Assembly (NCBI GenBank): GCA_021787845.1
Contig: JAJYLH010000027.1
Span: forward strand, 1-64,000
Source of the DNA: Myxococcales bacterium
Lineage (GTDB): Bacteria > Myxococcota > Myxococcia > Myxococcales > JAJYLH01
Direction of reading: 5' to 3'
DNA: 64,000 bases
Below the pieces are notes generated by a model. That model made no database searches and was not told where the DNA came from. It was given only the letters and a program-made list of their open reading frames with translations. A program made the position numbers and the translations under genes. Below are positions 19,249 through 21,357 of the stretch, piece after piece; position 1 is the stretch's first letter; the number at the start of each line of letters is the position of its first letter.

Positions 19249-21357
19249 TCACGTTGCGCAGCGGGCGAGATACCGCACCCGCGGCACGGTGCCGATTTCT
19301 TGCAGCGCCTGGTACGCCCTACCCTGCCCGATGAGCTGCGAGACCCGGCTCTTCTCGTCGGTCATGTCGCCGAAGGTGATGGCGCGGGTCGGGCAGGCCT
19401 CCTCGCACGCGGTCGCGATGTCCCCGTCGACGAGCGGCCGGTTCTCGAGCTGCGAGTCGATCTGCGCGGTGCGGATGCGCTGGACGCAGAAGGTACACTT
19501 CTCCATCACGCCGCGGGCGCGGACCGTGACCTCCGGGTTCTTCGACAGCTCGATCGACGGCGGCACCTGCGAGTTGTAGTTGAAGAAGTTGAACCGCCGG
19601 ACCTTGTACGGACAGTTGTTGGAGCAGAACCGGGTCCCGATGCAGCGGTTGTAGGTCATCTCGTTGAGGCCGTCGGTCGAGTGGGTGGTCGCGTTGACCG
19701 GACAGACGTACTCGCACGGCGCGCGTTCACACTGCTGGCAGAGCGTCGGCTGCACCTCGACCAGCGGCCGGTCCGGCTTGCCGCCGAAGTAGCGGTCGAT
19801 GCGCAGCCATTCCATCTCGCGCGAGTGCAGAACCTGCTCCTTGCCCACCATCGGGATGTTGTTTTCGGCGACGCAGGCGACGACGCAGGCGCTGCAGCCG
19901 GTGCAGCTCGTCAGATCGATGGCCATCGCCCACTGCGGCCCGGGGGGATGCGGCTGGTGGTAGAGCGTGAAGATCTTTTCGTCCGTCCCGCGCACGCGCG
20001 GGTCGCGCCGGTACTCGGTCAAGGTCCGCGACAGCGCGAGGTCGCGCCCTTCCATCGACCAGTGCTCTTGGGTCAGCGCCAGCCGCTCGCTCGTCCCGAG
20101 CTTCTCCAGCGTCACGGGCCCGTCGCCGAGGAGGAAGCCGTTCGCGCCCACGTCGACCGCGTTCAGCTCGCCGTTCCGCAGCGGCTTTCGCCCGTACCCC
20201 GCCGCGATGGTCACCGCTCCGTCGGCATGCCCGGGCAGCACCAGCACCGGAATCTCGAGGTGTCGCTCGCCGCGCGAGACTTGCACGTGGTCGCCGGTCT
20301 CCAGCCGATACGCCGCCGCGGTCTTCGGGCTCACCCAGGCGGCGTTGCCCCAGGTCTGGGTGGTCATCGGCTCCGGCAGCTCCTGGAGCCAGGGGTTGTT
20401 CGCGAACCGCCCGTCGTAGACCTTCGCGTCCGGCCGCACGCTCAGCTCGAACGCCGCCTCGGGCCGCCTCGGCGTCTGAAGCAGCGGCGCGATGGCCTCC
20501 CACCGCGTCGTCGGGACGGTCGTCGGGTACGCGCTCTCCTCGATGAAGCCGCGCTGGATCGTCGCGTCCCAGCCGAACCGCTCATCCCGAGCCGCGTCGA
20601 GGGACGGGAGCCGCTGGCTCCAGAAGCGTCGCAGCCGATCGTACGGCGGCAGGTCGGGCTCGCCCGCCAGCATCGCCAGCACGTCCTGCGCCGGCCGGCC
20701 GCCGAAGAGCACCTCGATGAGCGGCTGGACGAAGGAGACGGTGCCGTCGAGCGCCCGCGCGTCGTCCCAGGTCTCGAAGCCCGGGTCGGCCGGCGGCCGC
20801 CAGGACATGGAGGTGATGAACCGGCGCGGGCGCAAGTGCGGCGCCGGGTCGCGGTGGCACGAAAGGCACCACAGCATCGTCAGCGGCTCGGTCTTGTAGA
20901 CCTCGGGCATCCGGTCGACGCGCCCGTGGCACTCGACGCAGCCGACGCCTTTCTGCACGTGGATCGCGTGGTCGAAGTAGACGTAGCCCGGCAGCACGTC
21001 GACCCGCTTCCAGGGGATCGGTAGCCCTGTGAAGTAGCTCTTGCGCACCTGCTCCAGGAGAGGGCTGGCGGTCCATATCTGGCTGTGACAGTTGAGGCAC
21101 AGCTCCGCCGGCGGTATTCCCGCGCGCGCTTGCGTTTCCACCGTGGTGTGGCAGTAGCGGCAGTCGATGCCGTCGTCGCGCACGTGGTGCCGGTGGTCGA
21201 ACTCGAACGGCTGGAACGGCGGGTCGGCGATGTTGTTCACATACGGCGAGCGCGCGAGGAAGAAGAGGAACGCGAGCCCCCCGACACCGCCGCCGACCAC
21301 CGCGAGCAGCGCGACGTGCGTGGCGGTGTTGCTCCAGCGCGGAAATGGCGCTCCCAT
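19249..21357 (-). CDS. ActA-ActB fusion, shortened (alternative complex III)
   Basis: One 702-residue frame joins two act subunits. Residues 1-190 are ActA: a membrane helix (14-34) and haem c sites CRYCH (66), CLNCH (87), CVECH (140) and CLSCH (164). From about 195 (ETWDDARALDGTVSFVQPLI) the sequence is ActB, entering in the middle of its molybdopterin-oxidoreductase-like domain and continuing through the ferredoxin-like domain (CTGCSACVVAC 485-495, CQQCERAPCEYVC 540-552, CIGTRFCSNNC 572-582, CTFC 621-624). In the family ActA ends with a fifth CxxCH and ActB has roughly 1000 residues; the fifth haem site, the ActB signal and about half the first domain are absent here. A diverged hairpin repeat encodes residues 250-262. 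A real deletion-fusion or an assembly error are both possible. Confidence 0.85.
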   Translation of the reverse strand: MGAPFPRWSNTATHVALLAVVGGGVGGLAFLFFLARSPYVNNIADPPFQPFEFDHRHHVRDDGIDCRYCHTTVETQARAGIPPAELCLNCHSQIWTASPLLEQVRKSYFTGLPIPWKRVDVLPGYVYFDHAIHVQKGVGCVECHGRVDRMPEVYKTEPLTMLWCLSCHRDPAPHLRPRRFITSMSWRPPADPGFETWDDARALDGTVSFVQPLIEVLFGGRPAQDVLAMLAGEPDLPPYDRLRRFWSQRLPSLDAARDERFGWDATIQRGFIEESAYPTTVPTTRWEAIAPLLQTPRRPEAAFELSVRPDAKVYDGRFANNPWLQELPEPMTTQTWGNAAWVSPKTAAAYRLETGDHVQVSRGERHLEIPVLVLPGHADGAVTIAAGYGRKPLRNGELNAVDVGANGFLLGDGPVTLEKLGTSERLALTQEHWSMEGRDLALSRTLTEYRRDPRVRGTDEKIFTLYHQPHPPGPQWAMAIDLTSCTGCSACVVACVAENNIPMVGKEQVLHSREMEWLRIDRYFGGKPDRPLVEVQPTLCQQCERAPCEYVCPVNATTHSTDGLNEMTYNRCIGTRFCSNNCPYKVRRFNFFNYNSQVPPSIELSKNPEVTVRARGVMEKCTFCVQRIRTAQIDSQLENRPLVDGDIATACEEACPTRAITFGDMTDEKSRVSQLIGQGRAYQALQEIGTVPRVRYLARCAT
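20579..20612. repeat. diverged hairpin repeat inside the act fusion
   Basis: CGCTCATCCCGAGCCGCGTC with GAGGGACGGGAG resembles the forward hairpin repeat; read on the minus strand it gives LPSLDAARDER. Confidence 0.7.

Follow-up and report, generated by a model that had tools for sequence, protein, structure and literature searches.

A single reading frame joining parts of actA and actB in an ACIII operon of a Myxococcales bacterium

Gene content and organization of the act–cox locus

The window analysed here is the whole stretch of 64,000 nt taken from contig JAJYLH010000027.1 of a Myxococcales bacterium (assembly GCA_021787845.1). Its act–cox cluster, which encodes the respiratory alternative complex III (ACIII) and a cytochrome oxidase, is headed by a single open frame at 19249–21357, which runs on the minus strand from 21357 to 19249 (an earlier reading of the strand is corrected here), has 702 codons and no stop, and passes from ActA into mid-ActB sequence. 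The assignment of this fused actA–actB frame relies on its translation and on matches to the sequences of solved structures: residues 1–191 correspond to ActA in the solved structures of ACIII (8k9e_A, E=1.4e-55; also 6lod_A and 6f0k_A), and residues 184/192–700 to ActB, the match beginning only at residue 399 of the Roseiflexus protein (6lod_B) and at residues 456 (6f0k_B) and 461 (8k9e_B) of those of Rhodothermus and Chloroflexus, and in each case running through the end of ActB.

The ActA part (residues 1–193; 20779–21357, minus strand) consists of an N-terminal membrane helix and four CxxCH motifs, all on the minus strand: CRYCH (residues 66–70; 21148–21162), CLNCH (residues 87–91; 21085–21099), CVECH (residues 140–144; 20926–20940) and CLSCH (residues 164–168; 20854–20868). 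It lacks the C-terminal ∼25–30 aa, including the fifth CxxCH. Complete ActA frames elsewhere have five haem motifs (six in one case), in line with the preliminary description, which had counted four in the fusion where ActA has five. The ActB part (residues 194–702; 19249–20778, minus strand) retains ∼509 aa of the usual ∼1000 aa with domains B1 and B2, i.e. the rear of B1 and the complete Fe–S domain B2 (residues 485–655; 19393–19905, minus strand); the front of B1 is gone. All 15 cluster cysteines of B2 are invariant across 36 sequences (the fusion and 35 relatives), and the ligands for one [3Fe-4S] and three [4Fe-4S] clusters are all kept. The two parts meet in a GC-rich interval from W186 to F194 (20776–20802, minus strand), where WRPPADPG is ActA-like and FETWDDARALDG is ActB-like. 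The coding base pattern (i.e. G+C by codon position) is unbroken across this junction. The passage from ActA to mid-ActB in one frame, previously placed at 20770–20800, is confirmed.

Downstream of the fusion and on the same (minus) strand, the genes follow in the order actC (NrfD family; 17482–18879), actD (16729–17274), actE (monohaem cytochrome c; 16044–16727), an actF-like membrane subunit (14340–15644), cox subunit II with a cytochrome c domain (12639–13832), cox subunit I (10826–12595), cox subunit III (9934–10557) and cox subunit IV (9455–9856). ActC, ActD and ActE were recognized by Pfam, and the true start of actE probably lies within the 16044–16727 frame. The actF-like frame has no Pfam match and was assigned from its position and its ∼35–39% identity to relatives. 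All of these frames are open, as expected from the earlier statement that ActC–F and Cox are intact. The cluster adjoins a divergent enoyl-CoA hydratase-like gene and a replication-origin-type block (window positions 21584–35100), which we take to comprise dnaN, recF, gyrB, rnpA, oxaA, gidB, parA and parB, the names being read from the translations by eye.

The missing interval and the surrounding repeats

We compared the junction with 13 intact ACIII loci, i.e. those of 12 relatives from the same order and the second copy in the genome itself (contig C99). In these loci actA and actB are separate, nearly overlapping genes, and the homologous interval is 1346–1667 nt longer (median about 1475), which bears out the deletion-equivalent of ∼1.5 kb between the two genes that had been proposed. 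What is missing covers the last ∼25–30 ActA residues, with CxxCHR at their end, together with the start of actB, the signal of ActB and the front of B1. The signal consists of a twin-arginine motif (e.g. RRTFLQLLGA), a hydrophobic stretch and a lipobox-like cysteine; it is found in all comparison ActBs, within the portion deleted here. No twin-arginine motif occurs at the start of the fusion, where the sole export element is the ActA membrane helix (residues 7–35). On the ActB side, the cut falls within the conserved B1 motif xWhxPxxHpxExWgDxRAxDGT. The loss of half of the molybdopterin-like domain, as first described, holds insofar as the front of B1 is gone, but the break interrupts a conserved motif and does not coincide with the edge of a domain. 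Other contigs yielded no orphan piece of the missing half; the sole matches are two paralogous loci (41% and 32% identity), and its presence on another contig was rejected.

The repeats around the locus are mobile or spreading small repeats, and none of them lies at the junction. The fused gene and actC are 369 nt apart (18880–19248), compared with about −9 to +41 nt in relatives. About half of this spacer is a ∼173-nt near-palindromic MITE-like element (18898–19070), of which the genome contains dozens of copies at 70–90% identity, several of them at contig ends; RNA folding of the whole spacer gives a z of −6.6. Additionally, the 23-nt repeat TCCCGAGCGCAGTCGAGGGACGA has seven exact copies in the window, on both strands (positions 9816, 10633, 10730, 13729, 13885, 14849 and 19163), and copies often lie within or beside act and cox genes. 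The copy nearest to the junction is a degenerate one, in frame in the ActB part (LPSLDAARDER; 20585–20607), at a distance of about 170–190 nt. This speaks against a repeat at the breakpoint, and the earlier suggestion that nearby repeats caused the deletion is left unsupported there.

No other part of the assembled genome gives a long match to the junction. An exact repeat long enough to mislead an assembler was found neither there nor at the corresponding sites of relatives, whose two break sites have at most 7 nt in common in register. Sequence similarity between actA and actB was rejected as a source of the junction, being not above background in relatives. The lack of a long spanning repeat, together with the ≤7 nt shared in relatives, speaks against repeat collapse.

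Other ACIII loci, distribution and sequence constraint

Two other ACIII loci are present in the same genome (loci L132 and L133 of genome G000; the fusion locus is C113). Contig C99 contains a complete second ACIII (ActA–F) with SCO and a cytochrome oxidase (cox) operon; its ActA has five haem motifs and its ActB frame comprises 1372 aa. Contig C40 contains a third, divergent ACIII-type locus whose ActB is only 40% identical. A chimera of two operons was rejected: in the tree of ActA as in that of ActB, the fusion forms a long branch among relatives of the order, with no supported conflict.

The comparison genomes closest to the host belong to the same order and to other families. A search with the junction-spanning peptide covered 145 genomes from the order and 195 from the phylum and revealed no other fusion. 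Likewise, the best 80 loci from 84,980 species representatives of many phyla contain no fusion, and the two genes are separate wherever both are visible; two apparent candidates among the loci proved to be an intact actA/actB pair (L057) and a contig-edge fragment (L070). No description of an ActA–ActB fusion was found in the literature searched, which did not extend to subscription surveys of ACIII cluster variation.

Sequence constraint was gauged by a rate ratio, i.e. distances from this genome to relatives divided by distances among relatives. The ratios of the retained halves (ActA part 1.22, B1 remnant 1.08 and B2 1.53) resemble those of other genes (CoxA 1.47, ActC 1.33, GyrB 1.25, ActD 1.22, ActF 1.13 and ActE 1.04); the ratio of B2 is the highest, with an interval that overlaps that of CoxA. 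There is thus no sign of decay in the fused gene, which has no stops and evolves at rates like those of neighbouring genes. This suggests that the deletion is recent, that the fusion is an assembly artefact or that selection still acts on the protein; only an old event would be expected to have led to relaxed constraint or additional disabling mutations.

Predicted structure, electron path and maturation

In a structure model of the full fusion, the ActA part is predicted confidently (pLDDT mostly 80–97), with an N-terminal helix at residues 7–35. The full model is usable for the ActA part, and the ActB part was modelled on its own (pLDDT 67, pTM 0.64). Among structures, the latter model is closest to ActB from solved ACIII, with a TM-score of 0.73 by query and 0.42 by target; it carries no information on function.

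In R. marinus ActA, residues 45–89 hold haems II–III and residues 121–165 hold haems IV–V, and haem I (His/Met) lies at the ActB interface, ∼11 Å from FeS1 and <6 Å from haem II (PMC5928083). The only CxxCH outside these two haem subdomains is the C-terminal one, which by elimination should be that of haem I because the other haems fill residues 45–89 and 121–165. The haem lost from the fusion would accordingly be haem I, the bridge between FeS1 of ActB and the haem wire. Since quinol electrons enter at FeS1, loss of haem I breaks the chain at the first haem. Electron tunnelling is reportedly limited to ∼14 Å (Page et al. 1999), and without haem I, the sole relay from FeS1 (the [3Fe-4S] cluster) to haem II, quinol electrons would face a gap larger than this usual limit.

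Maturation of the fusion may also be problematic. ActA is a membrane-anchored cytochrome c, the chain of which is exported by Sec and loaded with haem outside. By comparison, R. marinus ActB is a Tat substrate from which the first 74 residues are cleaved (PMC5928083), and most such cofactors are inserted in the cytoplasm ahead of Tat export (PMC3623810). Normally, then, Tat translocates ActB in folded form after cluster insertion in the cytoplasm, whereas c haems are attached to unfolded, Sec-exported chains. A single chain with an ActA membrane helix and no Tat signal therefore faces conflicting maturation demands. Haem attachment to the front of the fusion appears possible and cluster insertion in its back unlikely; the Fe–S domain would probably stay apo, and the cell might at best still produce a four-haem ActA fragment anchored in the membrane.

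The preliminary description had suggested that the fusion may still accept quinol electrons and serve in a working minimal complex III. Neither suggestion finds support here: the haem nearest to FeS1 is lost and the Tat signal of ActB is gone, the B1 motif is cut, and the genome has a complete ACIII at another locus. On mechanistic grounds a functional minimal complex III, though possible, is disfavoured.

Origin and possible role of the fusion

We consider it somewhat probable (roughly 0.55) that a recent in-frame deletion of ∼1.5 kb disabled a redundant ACIII copy, leaving a product unable to do its normal job. Such a deletion would run from the last ∼30 actA codons into the middle of actB, and the cut inside the conserved B1 motif would be a further reason for the product to fail. 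With no decay in the two retained halves, a real deletion would be recent. Neighbouring genes of redundant operons are also fused by in-frame deletion in other instances; in those cases, too, co-directional neighbours are joined without a frameshift while a paralogue exists elsewhere, and the present case differs in the genes only. Loss of the copy in the window is plausibly tolerable because of the complete ACIII and cox operon on C99, which could provide the quinol:cytochrome c oxidoreductase activity; in F. johnsoniae, deletion of actA abolishes aa3-linked activity (PMC8552683). Some observations weigh against a null allele: the kept frame (a chance of 1/3), the intact ligands and the absence of decay also fit a still-useful protein, and the Tat/Sec and tunnelling arguments against function rest on knowledge of the family.

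A possible, less probable explanation is an artefact of assembly or consensus, in which the cells contain intact, separate actA and actB and the 1.5 kb was dropped through misjoining, a chimeric read or a variant from a minority strain. The assembly consists of 153 contigs, many of which end in dispersed copies of the 173-nt element; so many contigs and dispersed repeats make a short-read (probably metagenomic) assembly likely. The undecayed halves are likewise what an artefact would leave, and the fusion is absent from all other genomes compared, none of which is of the same family. However, the junction lies outside repeats and resembles no other long stretch of the genome, the two break sites in relatives share only short chance matches, no orphan fragment of the missing half was found, and the assembly is 98% complete with 0.33% contamination. 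Taken together, the indirect evidence for and against an artefact is mixed. It is unlikely that we see a working reduced ACIII, in which the fusion and ActC–F pass quinol electrons from FeS1 through four haems to ActE without haem I and most of B1. The open frame with its 15 Fe–S cysteines and four CxxCH, the intact ActC–F and Cox, the unrelaxed evolutionary rates and the lack of a cofactor in B1 of solved ACIII (PMC5928083) are all compatible with it, but the haem bridging FeS1 and haem II, the Tat signal for Fe–S export and part of the conserved B1 motif are lost, the form is known from one genome only, and the intact C99 copy makes its function unnecessary. A single-chain ActA–ActB that still works as a minimal ACIII, its Fe–S domain maturing without a Tat signal of its own, we regard as quite unlikely. 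Recruitment of the fusion as a membrane-anchored four-haem cytochrome (carrier or sink) with an inert ActB tail is very improbable: the confidently predicted ActA part with its N-terminal helix and the four kept CxxCH would suit such a role, but the Fe–S domain keeps every ligand, needlessly for an inert tail, and no relative has such a form.

As a broken copy, the fused gene would represent a routine loss in a redundant respiratory operon, and it calls for caution in counting ACIII operons from annotated pieces of draft genomes. Should the gene be shown to be both real and active, nature would have provided a deletion test of the roles of B1 and haem I, an open point in the ACIII mechanism.

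The closest known systems are the ACIII (ActABCDEF) of Rhodothermus marinus, Flavobacterium johnsoniae, Roseiflexus and Chloroflexus (PDB 6f0k, 6btm, 6lod and 8k9e). The locus has in common with them the order actA-B-C-D-E-F followed by cox, recognizable ActC, ActD and ActE families, four of the five ActA haem motifs and a B2 with all cluster ligands. In contrast to them, ActA and ActB are joined, and the haem I motif, the Tat/lipobox signal of ActB and the front of B1 are absent. The architecture of ActA is naturally variable, as shown by F. johnsoniae, where the protein (6btm_A) is enlarged by an extra N-terminal haem domain and has six c haems (PMC8552683); a haem domain was gained there, whereas here haem I appears lost and ActB appended. 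ACIII loci without actE, reported for Pelobacter, Sphaerobacter and Geobacter (PMC8552683), are natural reductions of the cluster, but they lose the terminal carrier, which is dispensable in F. johnsoniae, while in the fusion the connection from the quinol-side cluster to the haem wire would be lost. Gene order is a further point of variation among the loci compared: in an Oscillochloris MAG (L051), actA lies downstream of actB, as opposed to the usual A–B order.
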